Below, piece after piece: positions 21,808 through 29,579 of a stretch of DNA of 64,000 nucleotides (the stretch's first letter is position 1; every line of letters starts with the position of its first letter). A program made the position numbers and the translations under genes. Below the pieces are notes generated by a model, which was given only the letters and a program-made list of their open reading frames with translations, had not been told where the DNA came from and ran no database searches. Source of the stretch: Methylocystaceae bacterium (lineage in GTDB: Bacteria > Pseudomonadota > Alphaproteobacteria > Rhizobiales > Beijerinckiaceae); assembly GCA_009773555.1 (NCBI GenBank), contig WSXZ01000027.1, positions 1 to 64,000 on the forward strand, in the 5' to 3' direction.

Positions 21808-21962
21808 CTGATCCCTCGACTCAAGCCGCGCTACTCTAACATCCGCAGCGGCGCAGTTTTCAGCCAAATTGACCCGACGTGCCGGAGACGGCCGCTGGGT
21901 GTGGACAAGCGAGGGCCGCATCCCTTAACTGGCGCCGTCATCCGCCCCAACCCCGGCGTCTC

Positions 21963-23075
21963 ATGGAAGATTGGCTGCATTTTCCCCAACCGGTTCCGGC
22001 GATCAGGCACCATGCGACCGAGGCGAACGCCCGAGCGGTGCGCAACTGGCTGTGGCTCGTCGCGGGGCTGGTCTTTCTGATGGTCATCGTTGGCGGCGCG
22101 ACCCGGTTGACCGAATCGGGCCTATCGATCGTGCAGTGGAAGCCTGTCACCGGCGTGCTGCCGCCGCTGTCCCAGCAAGAGTGGCAGGAGGCGTTCGAGG
22201 CATACAAGCAGATTCCGCAGTATAGGGAACTGTTCCCGGACATGGATGTCGCCGGGTTCAAATATATTTACGCCTGGGAATGGGCGCATCGTCTTCTCGG
22301 ACGGGTGATCGGCGTCGTTTTCGCCGTTCCGCTCATATGGTTTTGGGCGACCGGCCGGCTGCCGCGTTCGGCGAAGCCGAAGCTCGTCGGCATTCTCGCG
22401 CTCGGGGCGCTGCAGGGCGGCGTCGGCTGGTGGATGGTCGCATCCGGCCTCGTCAATCGCATCGAGGTGGCGCAGGAGCGCCTCGCGATTCATTTGCTGC
22501 TCGCCGCGCTGATCTTCTCCGCCTGTTTATGGGTGGCTGGCGGCCTCGGACCGCGCGCGGTCTCTCTCGTGCATGGGGGCGCAGGTCGGCTCAAAGGGAC
22601 CGCGCTGACGATTCTGGCTTTTGTGTTTCTGCAGATTTTCGTCGGCGGCCTTGTCGCGGGACTGCGGGCGGGACTCGTCAATAACACTTGGCCGTTGATG
22701 GATGGCGTCTTCGTTCCACCAGCCGACGTCTTGTGGCGATTGGAGCCAGTCTGGACCAATCTCGTCGACAACCCGGTCACCGTCCAATTCTTCCACCGCA
22801 TGATCGCCTATCTGATCTTCGCTCTGGCGCTCGGGCATCTTCTGGATGCGTGGATGAACGCGGAAGGACGCGTGCGGCGCGGCGCCGTGATCCTGTTCGG
22901 CCATGTGCTCATGCAGATCGCGCTTGGCGTTGCGACCTTGGTGCTCGTCGAGCCGCCCTTCGCCGGCGACCCGCATCTCGCGCTGGCGCTCGCGCATCAG
23001 GCGATCGGCATGGCGGTGTTGGGCGTCGCGACACTGCAGGCGAGACGTCTTGTGCAAGACGTGATCACGAACTGA
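21963..23075 (+). CDS. ctaA: Heme A synthase
   Basis: Eight-helix inner membrane enzyme that oxidises the C8 methyl of heme o to give heme a for aa3-type cytochrome oxidase. 370 residues from ATG 21963. Heme-ligand histidines sit in EWAHRLLGR, LAIHLLLA, QFFHRMIAY and LALAHQAIG. Signatures: VGGATRLTESGLSIVQWKP and NNTWPLMDG. The TIGR04222-like gene begins 10 bp after the stop, so the following three genes are probably in its transcript. Confidence 0.95.
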   Translation: MEDWLHFPQPVPAIRHHATEANARAVRNWLWLVAGLVFLMVIVGGATRLTESGLSIVQWKPVTGVLPPLSQQEWQEAFEAYKQIPQYRELFPDMDVAGFKYIYAWEWAHRLLGRVIGVVFAVPLIWFWATGRLPRSAKPKLVGILALGALQGGVGWWMVASGLVNRIEVAQERLAIHLLLAALIFSACLWVAGGLGPRAVSLVHGGAGRLKGTALTILAFVFLQIFVGGLVAGLRAGLVNNTWPLMDGVFVPPADVLWRLEPVWTNLVDNPVTVQFFHRMIAYLIFALALGHLLDAWMNAEGRVRRGAVILFGHVLMQIALGVATLVLVEPPFAGDPHLALALAHQAIGMAVLGVATLQARRLVQDVITN

Positions 23076-23085
23076 GGCGGCTGGC

Positions 23086-23975
23086 GTGCAGAATCTTGCA
23101 ATCCTTAATCTTCCCGGGCCTGAATTTCTCAACGTCTTCGGCCTCGTCGTCATCCTCGTGCTGGCGGCCACTTACCTTTGCATTCGCTTCGCGGATCGCA
23201 CCGATCGCCGCCCGCCGCCGCCCGTGCCCCAGAGCCCCGACGCGATGGAGGTCGCCTTCCTGCAGGGCGGCGTCAATCAGGTCATCCGAACGCTGATCTA
23301 TGATCTTGCGCAGCGCGGCTTCGTCGCCCTCGCCGCGGAGGATCACGTGATTCCCACAGAGAAACAGCCGGAGCCGGGCGAACTCACCGCCATGGAGACG
23401 CGGCTGCTCGAAGCCGTGCAGGCGAAGCCGAAGGCGCATGCGCTGTTCGAAGATCGCGGCTTGCGGCGCTGGCTGCTGGAACAGCTCGCGCCGCTGCGCG
23501 CCCAGCTCGCCGCGGAGGAGCTGATCAAGCCCAAGTCCGTGAAGATCTGGCGCCGGCGCGCGCAGATCGGTGGAACGCTGATCATCGTCGGTCTGGCGCT
23601 TGCCAAGATCTATGTCGAATGGACGGCGGGCGCCGTGAATGTCGCCTATCTGGTCTTTCTCGCAGCTGCGTCGGTCGCGTCGCTTTTCGCGCTCGCCTAT
23701 GTGCTGACCAGAACCCACGCCAGCCGTCGCGGCCACGCCTATCTTGACGCAATGCGGCTGGCCTATGGCGGCCGTCTGAAAGAGGCCGTCGGTCACATCG
23801 GATCGCCCGGACCCGAAGCGCGCGCCTTCCACGGCGCCGCGCTGTTTCTCCGACGGAGGCGATGTTCGCCGAAGCCTTCAGTCGCGGTTCCGGAAGCGAT
23901 GGCTCCGATTGCGGAACAAGTTGCGGCGGCAGTTGCGGCGACGGCGGAGCGAGCGATGGTGGCGTCCGCGATTGA
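23086..23975 (+). CDS. TIGR04222-like membrane protein with Cys/Gly-rich tail, interrupted by an apparent 1-base deletion
   Basis: Starts at GTG 23086, 10 bp after ctaA. One N-terminal helix (about 13-33), a soluble acidic region with EVAFLQGGVNQVIRTLIYDL, then two helices (about 166-212). In this sequence the frame runs on into the DUF692 gene as a 570-codon fusion. Moving to the -1 frame near 23850 (one more T in CTGTTTCTC) instead gives SPTEAMFAEAFSRGSGSDGS then DCGTSCGGSCGDGGASDGG and a TGA at 23973. That glycine/cysteine tail is typical of TIGR04222 proteins. The tail overlaps the DUF692 start by 20 bp. It is a possible substrate of the adjacent MNIO enzyme. Confidence 0.7.
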
Positions 23976-24798
23976 GACGCCGCCCCTCGGGTCCGGACTC
24001 GGCTATCGTCCGCAGTTTCGCGCCGATCTCTTCGCCCACCGGGATGAGGTCGATTTTATCGAGATCATCGCCGATCATTATCTCGACGCATCGAAAGAAA
24101 AGCTCGCTGAACTTGAGCTTTTAAGAGCGCATTTTCCGCTCGTCGCGCATGGTCTCGATCTCTCGATCGGAAGCGCGGACGGCGTCGACACATGCTATCT
24201 CGATAAAGTCGCCGCGCTGATTGAACGCATCGATCCGCCCTGGTGGAGCGAACATCTTTGCTTCACGCGCGCGGGCGGAATCAGCATCGGCCATCTTGCG
24301 TCTATGCCCTATACGCAGGAAGCGATCGACGTCGTCACGCGCAATGTCGAAGTTGTGCGCAGGCGCATCAAGACGCCGCTGATTTTAGAAAATATCACTT
24401 GCGTGGTGCGCATTCCAGGCGGCGAAATGGACGAGCCTGAATTTTTGGCGCGCACGCTCGAAGCGACCGGATGCGGCTGGCTGTGCGACGTCGCCAACAT
24501 GCATGTGAATGTAACGAATTTCGGCGCCGATCTCGAACGTGACTTCGAGCGCTGGCCATGGGACAGGCTCGTGCAAATCCACTACGCCGGCGGACGCGAG
24601 CGAGACGGCCTGTTGATCGACAGCCATGACGCCGCGACGAGCGATGCGGTTTGGCGGCTCTATGAGCGCGTCATCGCCCGGGCGCCAGTCAAGGCCGTCA
24701 TTCTCGAGCGCGATGAGAAAATGCCGCCGTTCGGCGAACTCATCGATGAAGTGGCGCGCGCGCGTCGAAGCCTCGTGGAGAACGGGCGATGGCGTTAG
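23956..24798 (+). CDS. DUF692 / MNIO family multinuclear iron oxidative enzyme
   Basis: TIM-barrel enzyme of the MbnB/TglH family, which uses two or three irons and O2 to remodel peptide cysteines. From ATG 23956 it has 280 residues, the family length. Expected metal ligands are present: His65 (VAHGLDLSIGS), His100 (SEHLCF), Glu145 (LENI), Asp178 and His183 (CDVANMHVN), His209 (IHYAGG), Asp222 and His224 (IDSHD) and Glu251 (LERD). It is fused in frame to the preceding gene only because of the apparent frameshift. It overlaps the next gene by 10 bp. Its substrate is unproven. Confidence 0.88.
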   Translation: MVASAIETPPLGSGLGYRPQFRADLFAHRDEVDFIEIIADHYLDASKEKLAELELLRAHFPLVAHGLDLSIGSADGVDTCYLDKVAALIERIDPPWWSEHLCFTRAGGISIGHLASMPYTQEAIDVVTRNVEVVRRRIKTPLILENITCVVRIPGGEMDEPEFLARTLEATGCGWLCDVANMHVNVTNFGADLERDFERWPWDRLVQIHYAGGRERDGLLIDSHDAATSDAVWRLYERVIARAPVKAVILERDEKMPPFGELIDEVARARRSLVENGRWR

Positions 24799-25367
24799 CG
24801 CAGACGCAGGCGCTGCTCGCGCGCCTGTTCACCGACCATGATCTGCGGCGGGAGTTCTTTGAAGCGCCGGTCGCGGTGGCGACGCGTTTCGGCTTGAGCA
24901 TGCATGACACGCAGCGCCTCGCCGGAATCGACAATCGCGAAATCGAAGCCTTTGCCCAGAGCCTGATCGGCAAACGCGCGCTTTATGCGCGCAGGGCGCT
25001 GCCGCTCACGGCGCGCGCGTTGGACGATCGATTCGAGGCGCTTTTCCGGCAGGCGATCAGCGGCGCCGCGCGAGAGGCGACAAGTCGCTCGGACGCTGTG
25101 GCGCTGATCGCATTTCTCGATACGCGTGTCGCAAAGTGCGAATTGGAGCCGCGCTGGGTCGCCGACCTCGCGCGTTTCGAATTGGCCTTCATCGATGCCG
25201 GGCGTTCCGGCGCGACGCTTTTTTTCCGAGCGTTTGACTTCGATGTCGCATCGGTCGCCCAGGCTCTCGCCAAAGGCGAAGAGATCAGCGCCGTTCGCCG
25301 AAAAACGTTTGGCGTTTGGGTGCGCGCGCCTCGAGGCAGGCTGCGCTGGCGGCTATTTCAGCCTTAA
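24789..25367 (+). CDS. Small third protein of the MNIO operon, possible partner/recognition subunit
   Basis: 192 residues, starting inside the last codons of the DUF692 gene (10-bp overlap), so coupled to it. The N-terminal 60 residues (LARLFTDHDLRREFFEAPVA, then FGLSMHDTQRLAGI) form a helical domain. The C-terminal half is mixed (VADLARFELAFIDAG, FFRAFDFDV). MNIO enzymes usually need a dissimilar partner (MbnC, TglI, HvfC-like) that binds the peptide; position and size fit such a role. I cannot identify the family by sequence. It converges on the FliJ-like gene with a 4-bp overlap. Confidence 0.6.
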   Translation: MALAQTQALLARLFTDHDLRREFFEAPVAVATRFGLSMHDTQRLAGIDNREIEAFAQSLIGKRALYARRALPLTARALDDRFEALFRQAISGAAREATSRSDAVALIAFLDTRVAKCELEPRWVADLARFELAFIDAGRSGATLFFRAFDFDVASVAQALAKGEEISAVRRKTFGVWVRAPRGRLRWRLFQP

Positions 25368-25768
25368 ACCCTGCGCAAAACTTCCGGCATTTCGGCGTGG
25401 CGCCGCTCCGCGACGACATCGACCATGCGCTCGGCGCCGCGATCCCGCGCTTCCTGGCTTTGCGCCTTGGCGAAGTCTTCGCTGGCCTCTTTGAACTGCG
25501 CTTCGGCTTCTTCGAGTTGGCCGCGCAGTTCCGCGATCGACGCAAGGATGTTGTCGCGTCGCGTGCGCGCCGCCCGCGCATAAGTCGGATAGGCGAAATG
25601 ATTGGGGTCGTCGATGTTGGCGCGCCGCTCTTCCTGACCGATTTCCCGGTCGAGCTCGTTCGCCATGCGCGTGAATTCGCCGATCATTGCATTCAATTGG
25701 ACGACGCGCCGGCGTTTTTCCTCGGCCTGGAACCGTTTGAGACGGACAAGCGTATCCCGCGACTTCAT
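25364..25768 (-). CDS. FliJ-like coiled-coil protein
   Basis: 134 residues, almost wholly charged helix: MKSRDTLVRLKRFQAEEKRR at the start, NHFAYPTYARAARTRRDNIL in the middle, then a long Glu/Ala-rich coiled coil. It resembles the Hyphomicrobiales FliJ flagellar export chaperone, which often stands away from other flagellar genes. No other flagellar gene is in this window. ATG 25768 has GGAG 8 nt upstream. A general coiled-coil protein is the alternative. Confidence 0.6.
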   Translation of the reverse strand: MKSRDTLVRLKRFQAEEKRRRVVQLNAMIGEFTRMANELDREIGQEERRANIDDPNHFAYPTYARAARTRRDNILASIAELRGQLEEAEAQFKEASEDFAKAQSQEARDRGAERMVDVVAERRHAEMPEVLRRV

Positions 25769-25945
25769 GCGACAAGCTCCATTACGCAACTTATGCGAAA
25801 CAAATCCTTAACTCCGCGAGACAAGGCTCAATATGCCCTGTGGAAGTTGCTCGTTTGTTACCGAATTCGAATTTTTGAATTCTTCGTCGCTGTGTGTCTT
25901 CGGCGCACTATCTCAAGCCAGGGGCGCGCTTTGGAGGCCCAAGCT

Positions 25946-26417: not shown

Positions 26418-27890
26418 TCACGCCGGCTCCTTGGCGCGCGCCGTTGACGCCGCGGCGCCGCCATAGCGTCGGTAGATAAAATCCGGGGCCGAGACGTGCG
26501 ATTCGACTTCCGCGTAAGCGGCAAAGCGCGCATGGTCCGGAGAGAGGTGGCAGGCGGGGTCCGTCGCCGCTGCGTCGCCGGCGATCGCGAACGCCTGACA
26601 GCGGCAACCGCCGAAATCGATTTCGCGGCGCTCGCAAGAACGGCAGGGCTCCTTCATCCAGTCCGTGCCGCGGAACGCGTTGAAGGCTGCGCCGTTCCGC
26701 CAAATGTCGCCGAGGGGCCTCTCGCGCACATTGTCGAACGTCAGTCCCGGCAAGGTCTGCGCGGCGTGGCAGGGCAGGGCCTTGCCAGATGGCGTCACCG
26801 CTATGATCGATCGGCCCCAGCCGCCCGTGCAGGCCTTCGGCCGCGTCGCGTAATGATCGTGGATGACGAAATCGAAATTGAGCACGCCGGCAAGACGCTT
26901 CTTCGCCTCGTCGACGATGCCGACCGTTTCCATGAAGGCTTCGCGTGTCGGGATGAGCGCGGCCCGGTTCATCTGCGCCCAGGCGTAATATTGAATATGC
27001 GCGATCTCGATGCGCTGCGCATCGACCTCGACGGCGAATTCGATGATCTGCGGCAGATGCGCAATGTTCTGCCGGTGCATCGGCGCATTGATCGTCAATC
27101 CCATGCCGAATTCGCGCGTCCATCGCGCGACGTCGCGCTTCTTGGCGACGCCGCCCTGATAGCCCGAGATGCGGTCGGCGCTCTCAGGAACGACATCCTG
27201 GATGGAGACCTGCACATGATCGAGGCCGATCTCGGCGAGACGCTGCAACCGCTCGCGCGTAAGCAGAACAGCGGAGGTGACGAGATTGGTGTAGAGCCCC
27301 GCGTCGACCGCCTGTGCGAGGATCTCTTCAAGATCGCGTCGCACGGTGGGTTCGCCGCCGGAAAGATGCAGTTGCAGCGCGCCGATCGACGCCGCCTGAC
27401 GGAAGGTCTCGCCCCATTCATCGGCGGTGAGTTCGGTATTCGAGCGCTCGAGCTCAAGCGGATTAGAGCAGTACGGACATTGCAGCGGGCAGCGATGCGT
27501 AAGCTCGGCGAGCAGCCCCGCAGGTCCGCCCGTGAATGGCGCGATCGACGCGGCGAAGGCGGACGGTGGCGGCGGCGCAAATTCGTCGGTTCCGTCGCAC
27601 AGCAGCCGCTTGTCGGCGAGGCCTTGCAGCAGTGCGGTAACGTCGCGCGTGATAACGTCGAGGGGCGCGGAATATTGCTGCGCGAGGCGCGCGCACAGAT
27701 CGGCGAGGCGTGTTGCGCCATCAATCGCGCGCAGCACGATGAGGCCAATCGGATCGAGTTCATAGGCGCGCTCGGGCGCGAGAACAACCGTTCGCGATCG
27801 CGCGCGGTCTTCATGCAGCCGCGCGTAGCGCGTGAAGGCCGGACGCGAGTCCGGCGCAATCACGAACCGCGCGGCGTGCGCCTCAGACAT
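26418..27890 (-). CDS. pqqE: PqqD-PqqE fusion: PQQ peptide carrier joined to radical-SAM synthase
   Basis: 490 residues. Residues about 15-100 are PqqD (VVLAPERAYELDPIGLIVLR), the winged-helix PqqA-binding protein. Residues about 120-480 are PqqE, which crosslinks Glu and Tyr of PqqA. The radical-SAM cluster CPLQCPYC has Cys134, Cys138 and Cys141, with the SAM motif HLSGGEPTVRRDL. SPASM cysteines lie in CHAAQT, CRSCERREIDFGGCRC and PACHLS. In many bacteria PqqD is separate or fused to PqqC, so this order is less common. It overlaps pqqC by 8 bp. Confidence 0.95.
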   Translation of the reverse strand: MSEAHAARFVIAPDSRPAFTRYARLHEDRARSRTVVLAPERAYELDPIGLIVLRAIDGATRLADLCARLAQQYSAPLDVITRDVTALLQGLADKRLLCDGTDEFAPPPPSAFAASIAPFTGGPAGLLAELTHRCPLQCPYCSNPLELERSNTELTADEWGETFRQAASIGALQLHLSGGEPTVRRDLEEILAQAVDAGLYTNLVTSAVLLTRERLQRLAEIGLDHVQVSIQDVVPESADRISGYQGGVAKKRDVARWTREFGMGLTINAPMHRQNIAHLPQIIEFAVEVDAQRIEIAHIQYYAWAQMNRAALIPTREAFMETVGIVDEAKKRLAGVLNFDFVIHDHYATRPKACTGGWGRSIIAVTPSGKALPCHAAQTLPGLTFDNVRERPLGDIWRNGAAFNAFRGTDWMKEPCRSCERREIDFGGCRCQAFAIAGDAAATDPACHLSPDHARFAAYAEVESHVSAPDFIYRRYGGAAASTARAKEPA

Positions 27891-28653
27891 TTGCTTCTCC
27901 TGGCCGCCATGCGCCGGGCGGGATCAGCCCGGGCGTGACGTAGGCGTGATGTAATGCGTCAAGCTGCGCCCACAAGACGTCGCATTTGAACCGCACGGCG
28001 CCGACGCAGGCTTCCTGTTCGGCGCGGGTCTTGGCGTTATCGAGCACATAGCCGAGCGCGAACTCGGAATCGCGCGGCGCCTGGGTCAGTCGGCGCTTGA
28101 AATAGGCCATCACCTGCTCGTCGACGAAGTCGTAGCTTTCAAGCATTCCGACGATGCGTTCGCGATGGATCGACGGCGCGAAGAGTTCGGTCAGCGAAGA
28201 CGCGACCGCGACGACGAGCGGCTGCTCGACGACAAAGCGCACATAGGCTTCGACGGCGAATTTTGTCGCGGGCAGGGCGCCGCGCCGAGAGGTCACGTAA
28301 TCGCGCGAGAAGCCGAGCGCGTCCGTCAGCACGAGCCAGCGCTCGATGCCGCCGCCTTCTTCGCCGAGGCCGTCATGATCATGAATGCGATGGATCCACT
28401 CGCGGCGCAGCTCGCGATCATGGACGCGGCTCATAAAGGCGGCGTCCTTGCGCGGCACCGCCTCCTGGTAGCAGTAGCGGTTCAGCGCCCAGGCGGCGAC
28501 CTGATCCTTGTTGAGCTTGCCGCCGTGCAGCAGCTTATGAAACTCGTGCTTGTCGTGATAGCGCTCGGCGCCGACGGCGCGAATCGAGGGTTCAAATTCG
28601 TCGCGGGCAAGCGGCGTGGCGCCCCGCCAATCAATGGCTACGATCTCGTTCAC
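27883..28653 (-). CDS. pqqC: Pyrroloquinoline-quinone synthase PqqC
   Basis: Cofactor-free oxidase for the final ring closure and eight-electron oxidation to PQQ. 256 residues from GTG 28653, overlapping the pqqB stop by 4 bp (GTGA). Features: YHDKHEFHKLLHGGKLNK, ALNRYCYQEAVPRKDAA, HRIHDHDG and SSLTELFAP. Unlike Methylobacterium PqqCD there is no PqqD extension, in keeping with PqqD being fused to PqqE here. Confidence 0.96.
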   Translation of the reverse strand: MNEIVAIDWRGATPLARDEFEPSIRAVGAERYHDKHEFHKLLHGGKLNKDQVAAWALNRYCYQEAVPRKDAAFMSRVHDRELRREWIHRIHDHDGLGEEGGGIERWLVLTDALGFSRDYVTSRRGALPATKFAVEAYVRFVVEQPLVVAVASSLTELFAPSIHRERIVGMLESYDFVDEQVMAYFKRRLTQAPRDSEFALGYVLDNAKTRAEQEACVGAVRFKCDVLWAQLDALHHAYVTPGLIPPGAWRPGEANV

Positions 28654-29579
28654 AGGTTGACCTCCATGCCATCCTCGCCGATTTCCCAGCCGGCGGCTTG
28701 GGCGATCGCATATTCGTCCGAGAATTCGTTGAGCAGAGGATTGGAATTGTTGATGTGCACGTAGATTTTGCGCTTCACGTCGAGCGGCTCGAACGCGGCG
28801 ATGGAGCCGTCGGCGCCGCTGACGTTGATATGGCCCATGCGCGAACCTGTCTTGCCGAGCAGGCCTTGCTCGATCATCTCGTTTTCGTGGAAAAGCGTGC
28901 CGTCGAAGAACACCAGCTTGGCGCCGCGTAGGCGTTCGGCGAGCGGCGCATCCAGCTTTGCGCAACCGGGAATGTAGAAAAACGAGTCGCCCGTCGCGGT
29001 TTCGATGATCTCAAGCCCCAGCGTGTCGCCAGCGCTTGTGCCAAAATTCGGCGCATTGGCGTTCTCGAGATAAAGCGCGATCTTTCCCGGAACGGGAAAG
29101 GCGCGGATCGCCAGCCCAAGATCGATGCCCGCTCCGGTGACAGGCGCCGCTGCCTCTGTGTGCAGCTCAATGCGTGGCACGAACTGCGTCTGCAGGATCG
29201 TGAAAATCGGATTGGCGCCGAGCGCATCGAGAACGCGTCCTGCGGCGTAGAGGCTGAACGGCTGCGCTTCTCGCATGTTGAGGAGACCCGCGACATGGTC
29301 CACGTCGCCATTTGTCAGCGCGACCGCCTTGATCGGGCTCGCGCGCAAACCGTCATCGGGGGCGGGAGCAAGCTCGGGCGTGGCAGCGATTTGCTCGCGA
29401 AGATCGGGCGAGGCGTTGAGCAGCAGCCAGTCGGCGCCATTGACGCTCACCGCCAATGAGGACTGTGTGCGCGGCAAAAAGCCGGGCGCTCCGGCGCGGA
29501 CAGCCCGGCAATTCGCGCAGTTGCAATTCCATTGCGGGAAGCCGCCGCCGGCGCCCGACCCCAAGATTCTGATCCGCAT
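28650..29579 (-). CDS. pqqB: PqqB, metallo-beta-lactamase-fold PQQ synthesis protein
   Basis: 309 residues; hydroxylates the crosslinked Glu-Tyr dipeptide in PQQ synthesis. Typical motifs: MRIRILGSGAGGGFPQWNCN, CANCRAVRAG (zinc site), TNGDVDHVAGLLN and GHINVSGADGSIAAF. It is the first gene of pqqB-pqqC-pqqDE. No good ribosome-binding site precedes the ATG. No pqqA-like peptide with the Glu-x3-Tyr motif lies in the 250 bp upstream. Confidence 0.96.
   Translation of the reverse strand: MRIRILGSGAGGGFPQWNCNCANCRAVRAGAPGFLPRTQSSLAVSVNGADWLLLNASPDLREQIAATPELAPAPDDGLRASPIKAVALTNGDVDHVAGLLNMREAQPFSLYAAGRVLDALGANPIFTILQTQFVPRIELHTEAAAPVTGAGIDLGLAIRAFPVPGKIALYLENANAPNFGTSAGDTLGLEIIETATGDSFFYIPGCAKLDAPLAERLRGAKLVFFDGTLFHENEMIEQGLLGKTGSRMGHINVSGADGSIAAFEPLDVKRKIYVHINNSNPLLNEFSDEYAIAQAAGWEIGEDGMEVNL

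Follow-up and report, generated by a model that had tools for sequence, protein, structure and literature searches.

Results

A TIGR04222 protein, an MNIO and a partner protein downstream of ctaA

The window, by which we mean the whole stretch of 64,000 nucleotides analysed here, corresponds to contig 21 of a draft genome of 3,999,444 bases in 144 contigs. On its forward strand the open reading frame of ctaA, the gene for heme A synthase, extends over 21879..23075 (PF02628, 330.5 bits), with the true start probably at the ATG at about 21963; against NF045570 the protein scores 319.6 bits, under the cut-off of 550. After a spacing of 10 bp a GTG at 23086 starts the membrane part of a TIGR04222 protein (23086..23850, forward strand), which was delimited from its profile score of 79.8 bits and the hydropathy of its relatives. 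It has three strong transmembrane segments, and a deletion, with its junction at 23850..23851 (forward strand; DNA compared with that of the sister genome L007), cuts a fourth hydrophobic segment. The junction is followed by a tail of Cys, Gly, Ser and Asp that ends at a TGA (about 23862..23975, forward strand). In the window the tail lies outside the frame of the membrane part and is read by translating another frame, and in relatives it is in frame; within it lies the sequence CGTSCGGSCG (23910..23939, forward strand), also out of frame, which was recognised from the motif in relatives and from the pattern of variation over codon positions.

The gene for the MNIO (DUF692) enzyme, of 280 amino acids, lies at 23956..24798 on the forward strand (PF05114, 274.6 bits), and its likely own ATG at 23956 overlaps the end of the tail. 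Its stop is in turn overlapped by the start of gene 3 (24789..25367, forward strand), which encodes a 192-residue partner protein, PME-type 2 or TglI-like to judge from its structure model and Foldseek matches. The first-pass annotation had placed three genes with overlapping ends 10 bp after ctaA, and these coordinates hold. On the reverse strand follows a gene (25364..25789) whose product we take to be FliJ-like. A homologue lies downstream in 31 of the 33 loci that we compared, the available sequence stopping short there in the other two, and in relatives the set is bounded by this gene. Further along the reverse strand, 26418-28965 holds a presumably pqqE-like frame that is extended at its N-terminus by a PqqD-like part, together with a gene that we assume to be pqqC-like.

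A 34-bp gap fuses two reading frames in the window

As read, the window has a single GTG-started open reading frame of 570 amino acids (23086..24798), residues 20-254 of which give the 79.8-bit match to the NCBIfam model TIGR04222, near_uncomplex (cut-off 43), and residues 303-561 the 274.6-bit match to the MNIO family PF05114 (cut-off 25). Compared with L007, exactly 34 bp are missing at 23850/23851, so that the tail is thrown out of frame and the membrane part is joined in frame to the MNIO. In all 26 other MNIO-linked Methylocystis copies the tail is in frame, which bears out the earlier suggestion that a Cys/Gly/Ser/Asp tail is encoded here in another frame. Two further causes of the frame break were considered and are ruled out: a programmed frameshift, since the cause is the deletion relative to L007, and a single-base slip, since the loss is of exactly 34 bp.

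The window copy is either a deletion allele or the product of an assembly fault. Such a fault, with the operon intact in the strain, would bear on this copy alone and is no rival to the main explanation of the locus. The genome is a draft of 144 contigs and the sister genome is intact, but a clean loss of 34 bp with no obvious flanking repeat would be unusual for short-read errors, and we consider a fault possible though rather unlikely. If the assembly is right, the strain probably cannot make the product, as the reading frame bypasses the tail, and the copy is most likely a recent loss-of-function allele, the undecayed frame of the tail suggesting that the deletion is recent. One could instead take the 570-residue frame for a working, membrane-tethered MNIO that acts on another substrate and is held on the cytoplasmic side by the loss of part of the borderline fourth hydrophobic segment, the core of which the deletion takes out. 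One open frame does run through both domains, and relative to the sister genome neither part looks decayed (dN/dS 0.22 for the MNIO and 0.29 for the membrane part). However, the event is too recent for such ratios to be informative, the tail frame is likewise undecayed, the MNIO keeps its likely own start and the fusion is found in just one of the 27 MNIO-carrying loci, all of which makes a functional fusion very improbable.

Conservation of the gene set within Methylocystis

TIGR04222 proteins are encoded in 33 of 39 Methylocystis genomes, our own included, and in 26 of the 30 of good quality. All 33 TIGR04222 regions of the genus, that is the window and L068-L099, were compared; among named genomes 15 related loci were found, 12 of them labelled Methylocystis and three only 'Alphaproteobacteria bacterium'. 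The gene ctaA lies upstream of the TIGR04222 gene in 32 of the 33 loci, the remaining contig starting at the gene, and the gap between the two measures 3 to 14 bp in those 25 loci whose start pattern matched. The MNIO gene and gene 3 follow directly downstream in 27 loci, window included, and are missing in six. In the relatives inspected the MNIO start overlaps the end of the tail in a different frame. Conservation of both the three-gene order (27 of 33 loci) and the tail cysteines (all 26 intact copies), which the first-pass annotation had proposed as a check, was thus found.

Where the MNIO gene is missing, the end of the FliJ-like gene lies 15-86 bp past the stop of the membrane protein gene in five of the six loci; in the sixth, L099, the stretch after the membrane protein is masked. 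Among the 27 loci with an MNIO gene, that of L088 has an incomplete gene 3, as the sequence compared ends within it. Two individual loci differ in other ways: in L096, from genome G013, gene 3 is frameshifted and the tail and MNIO are intact, and in L017, as compared with the other relatives, additional sequence separates the tail region from the MNIO start. Six of the 39 genomes have no TIGR04222 match, and ctaA was found in three of these six. The membrane protein is absent from an older clade of G001, G004 and G017; in G001 and G017 the FliJ-like gene comes next after ctaA, and no FliJ-like gene was found beside ctaA in G004.

The history of the set was followed through several trees. An unrooted tree of the locus that includes the TIGR04222 protein groups the tail-less genomes with a support of 93. 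A rooted five-gene tree made without that protein places G012 among the tail-bearing species (98-99), as do a tree of ctaA only, with a weak support of 37, and a ribosomal-operon tree of 30 genomes and 3874 columns (local supports 0.98 and 0.93). The AU test rejects monophyly of the carriers (p = 0.028), and with it one late acquisition of tail, MNIO and partner together; for the tail-less genomes it does not reject monophyly (p = 0.26). The simplest reading is that an ancestral complete set, outside the older clade of G001, G004 and G017, was lost once or twice, and a single event may account for all the tail-less genomes.

The tail motif goes with the MNIO

The motif CG[STM]SC[GAS][GS][SA]CG is present in the tail of every intact MNIO-linked copy (26/26). 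A Cys tail missing beside a DUF692 gene, which the first-pass annotation had named as refuting its proposal, was found in no intact copy of the genus. In the MNIO-less copies, all five that can be read stop just before the motif and have 0-1 Cys; the sixth tail is masked. No MNIO was found anywhere in five of these six genomes, three of the five being incomplete (66, 73 and 81%), and the sixth has one MNIO elsewhere. Without its tail the membrane part is still constrained (dN/dS 0.13, 0.14 and 0.26 in three pairs). Across 27 sequences, window included, the motif codons vary mostly at the third position, with 4, 3 and 8 variable sites at codon positions 1-3, compared with 9, 9 and 9 in the ten codons before the motif. 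Gene 3, with a dN/dS of 0.22-0.48 as against 0.14-0.27 for the MNIO (five pairs each), is the least constrained of the three genes.

The MNIO enzyme and its partner

The best-scoring model for the MNIO is NF050167 (BufB), with 236.9 bits, which is below the cut-off of 310 and so does not assign the enzyme to that family. The residues that we take to be its iron ligands, H64, H99, D177, H208, H223 and E250 (numbering of alignment A3), are invariant in nine of nine aligned MNIOs, out of 27 at the locus, and line up with the solved DUF692 proteins 3bww and 8hci_D. The enzyme was said to have all the expected ligands and this agrees with the alignment, metal binding being putative.

Gene 3 matches no Pfam family at E <= 1 and hence has no DUF2063 (PME-type 1) signature. 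Its protein scores 29.2 bits against NF038399, the NHLP / Os1348 leader model, over residues 7-59, under the cut-off of 40, and there is perhaps a distant resemblance to the Os1348 NHLP leader domain. A search of PDB sequences gave nothing significant (best E 1.1) and a plasmid search no match. The AlphaFold model (mean pLDDT 82.7) has a helical domain at the N-terminus and ends in a small beta-alpha-beta-beta unit. Its top Foldseek matches are 8hi7_A and 8hci_A of TglHI, both with a probability of 1.00, at E-values of 1.0e-3 and 1.2e-3, just above 0.001, and with TM scores of 0.59-0.61 on the query; since chain D is the DUF692 subunit, we took chain A to be TglI. A lower match is 7dz9_C of the MbnABC complex (probability 0.82, E 0.71), and NGO1945 (3dee) is absent from the best 50 of 130 matches. 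The predicted fold is therefore closest to the TglI chains and then to MbnC, in keeping with the idea that the 192-residue protein would be a partner of the MbnC/TglI type, and it agrees with the class that Antoine et al (2025; PMC12452194) call PME-type 2. Partners of this type have a TglI/NGO1945-like fold, no DUF2063 signature and a gene that comes after that of the MNIO.

Topology of the membrane protein

In the intact protein of L007 strong hydrophobic segments lie at about residues 15-33, 159-177 and 189-207. Positive charges are found in the loops after the first and third segments, and almost none at the N-terminus or between the second and third. By the positive-inside rule this pattern places the large domain in the cytoplasm. 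A fourth segment, at 247-265, is borderline, with 19-residue hydropathy means of 1.12-1.27 in three Methylocystis proteins as compared with 1.40-1.55 in four proteins from outside the genus. On this segment depends the side on which the tail lies, and with it the earlier idea that the tail is modified while anchored: without a fourth segment it would be cytoplasmic and accessible to the MNIO, with one it would be periplasmic. For the proteins that they modelled, Antoine et al propose a periplasmic tail (PMC12452194). The structure model of the membrane protein is too poor for any claim (mean pLDDT 63.5, pTM 0.44); a search of PDB sequences returned one match, at E 0.62, and a plasmid search none.

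TIGR04222 proteins outside the genus

TIGR04222 exceeds its cut-off in 9 of 397 genomes in the order, in 1 of 385 in the class and in 14 of 398 in the phylum, sets that overlap and include G000. Outside the genus 17 regions were examined, seven in L100-L106 and ten in L127-L136. No credible homologue of the MNIO or of ctaA is in view in any of them, the sole match to the MNIO profile being a 111-residue frame in L101 (E 0.07); in three the contig breaks off at the gene or shortly past it, and in two of these, L133 and L136, the tail itself is cut. A low-complexity, Cys/Gly-rich C-terminal tail is common in TIGR04222 proteins, though not present in all. Within the last 60 residues at least two Cys are found in 14 of the 17 tails and none in three. 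An MNIO is encoded somewhere in 8 of the 17 genomes, and 7 of the 14 with a Cys-tailed TIGR04222 protein have no MNIO at all, so Cys tails of TIGR04222 proteins have a role without an MNIO. The Methylocystis motif occurs in 0 of the 17 regions. Cys tails as such need no MNIO; the particular motif does go with it. Five of the regions (L100, L101, L102, L104 and L105) encode long TIGR04222 proteins with Cys/Gly tails and an extra N-terminal domain, which we take to be GRDP-like, and have no MNIO nearby.

In two regions, L131 (4823-5878) and L132 (5012-6055), the Cys-tailed TIGR04222 gene is followed directly by a gene for a radical SAM/SPASM protein. Their genomes, G856 (100% complete) and G917 (77%), both lack an MNIO match. 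The two enzymes have a CxxxCxxC motif and score 67 and 71.8 bits against PF04055; their best NCBIfam model is SbtM, at 114.5 and 142.3 bits, far under its cut-off of 350. In the order to which G856 and G917 belong, 6 of 48 genomes have a TIGR04222 protein and these two have the radical SAM neighbour; for L135, from the same order, the two scanned neighbours of the TIGR04222 gene are other genes, and three more contigs end at or near the gene. The two cases are few, and suggest that the tail is the target of more than one Cys-modifying chemistry.

Discussion

In most Methylocystis species the three genes downstream of ctaA would, in our reading, form a membrane-anchored counterpart of the systems that make MNIO-modified peptides, and we put the probability of this at about 0.6. 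The TIGR04222 protein would serve as the scaffold, with the CGxSCxxxCG tail at its C-terminus as the substrate. The product of gene 3, TglI-like and of PME-type 2, would present the tail to the MNIO, which would oxidise its cysteines, most likely in the Cys-Gly steps, to yield thiooxazole- or oxazolone/thioamide-type groups that may bind copper. The modification of the tail, its chemistry and the role in copper handling are all inferred from genes, motifs and predicted folds. MNIOs that depend on PME1, such as those of bufferins, install thiooxazoles, and thiooxazole formation with copper binding has been reported for bufferin-like systems, according to the part of PMC13097082 available to us; thiooxazole formation has been shown for PME1 systems, and the partner at this locus is PME-type 2-like. 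What stands of the earlier claim that the tail is the substrate of the MNIO is an association, in that the motif is found in 26 of 26 intact linked copies, is absent from five of five readable MNIO-less ones and is accompanied by a partner with a TglI-like predicted fold; modification of the tail is the step that this association suggests.

The same observations can be read with the tail as an unmodified metal-binding or structural element, the MNIO and its partner acting on another peptide and the shared loss reflecting one contiguous deletion. Outside the genus 14 of 17 regions have a Cys tail and no MNIO in view, and seven of those 14 genomes have no MNIO match at all, which counts against the simplest form of the substrate hypothesis. 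Tail, MNIO and partner are also contiguous, so one deletion could remove all three in the absence of any functional link, and a single origin of the tail-less genomes is not rejected; the joint loss is accordingly suggestive of a functional link and is not proof of one. It also speaks against the substrate reading that gene 3 is the least constrained of the three and is frameshifted in L096 beside an intact tail and MNIO, that the MNIO scores below the BufB cut-off, and that the window copy cannot make the tail. Against an unmodified tail stands the specific motif, present in all 26 MNIO-linked tails and in none of the 17 unlinked ones, and the three genes in the window run into one another and into the convergent FliJ-like gene, so that the set has no space for a further precursor gene. 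We therefore regard an unmodified tail as unlikely, and retain the tail as the candidate substrate.

The further suggestion that the set supplies metal to the heme-copper oxidase that depends on CtaA has not fared well. Among the regions examined adjacency to ctaA was seen only within Methylocystis, where species without the MNIO keep the order ctaA-TIGR04222, and the 17 outside regions have no ctaA homologue in view. We reject the adjacency as support for the oxidase idea, as it is genus-wide synteny; the relation to ctaA is one of neighbours only.

That subsets of TIGR04222 proteins have C-terminal Cys-rich tails which are MNIO substrates with PME-type 2 partners was proposed by Antoine et al (2025; PMC12452194), and the Methylocystis set is a member of the kind that they predicted: as far as the available text of that paper goes, it shares the same three components and the same proposal for the tail. 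Their TIGR04222 proteins come mostly from Actinomycetota, and Methylocystis and ctaA do not appear in the main text; the text available gives no MNIO-specific motif for the tails, whereas those of Methylocystis have one, and it places the tail in the periplasm while for the Methylocystis protein either side is possible. In the same text 'radical SAM' occurs in the reference list only.

With the bufferins or captophorins (Buf1, Buf2, EGKCG) the set shares a BufB-like MNIO, Cys-Gly steps in the presumed core and a plausible role in copper handling. It differs in that its candidate substrate is a multi-pass membrane protein without bufferin signatures and gene 3 has no DUF2063 (PME-type 1) signature. 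TglHI and MbnBC offer the nearest folds, gene 3 being closest to the TglI chain and then to MbnC and the MNIO aligning with TglH and MbnB, but the candidate substrate is here the tail of a membrane protein and not a free peptide, and by sequence gene 3 is not significantly similar to any chain of known structure (best E 1.1). Radical SAM/SPASM maturases, SbtM-like and ACGX-like with scores far under the family cut-offs, directly follow the Cys-tailed TIGR04222 gene in two other genomes; they are unrelated to the MNIO and missing from the Methylocystis operon.

The genome of the window holds two more loci with an MNIO, in both cases a profile match, the names of the other genes being our assumption. 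On contig 11 (L006) is a presumably methanobactin-like operon with a short precursor ending GAMCASTCAATNG, an enzyme that we take to be MbnB-like and an MbnC-like neighbour. Contig 103 (L005) has what we take to be a bufferin-like set, with a Cys-containing precursor, the MNIO and DUF2063-like and DoxX-like genes, adjoining a transposase-like frame.

New here are the motif linked to the MNIO, the observation that tail, enzyme and partner are missing together, the fused allele and the two pairs of Cys-tailed TIGR04222 and radical SAM/SPASM genes; neither such pairs nor the ctaA-linked set were found in titles or abstracts among the open-access matches listed. Methylocystis offers a natural comparison, with related species that have or lack the tail, the enzyme and the partner. 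Tentatively, and with the odds somewhat against it, TIGR04222 might be a general membrane-anchored scaffold for modified metal-binding tails on which the enzymes are interchangeable, an MNIO with a TglI-like partner working on CGxSCxxxCG in Methylocystis and a radical SAM/SPASM maturase on CGGCGG in a different order of that phylum. In that case the radical SAM pairs would show the scaffold, and not the enzyme, to be the constant part. If the Methylocystis tail is modified, RiPP-type chemistry would be applied to a permanent membrane protein and not to a released peptide, and this in methanotrophs with a copper-dependent metabolism.
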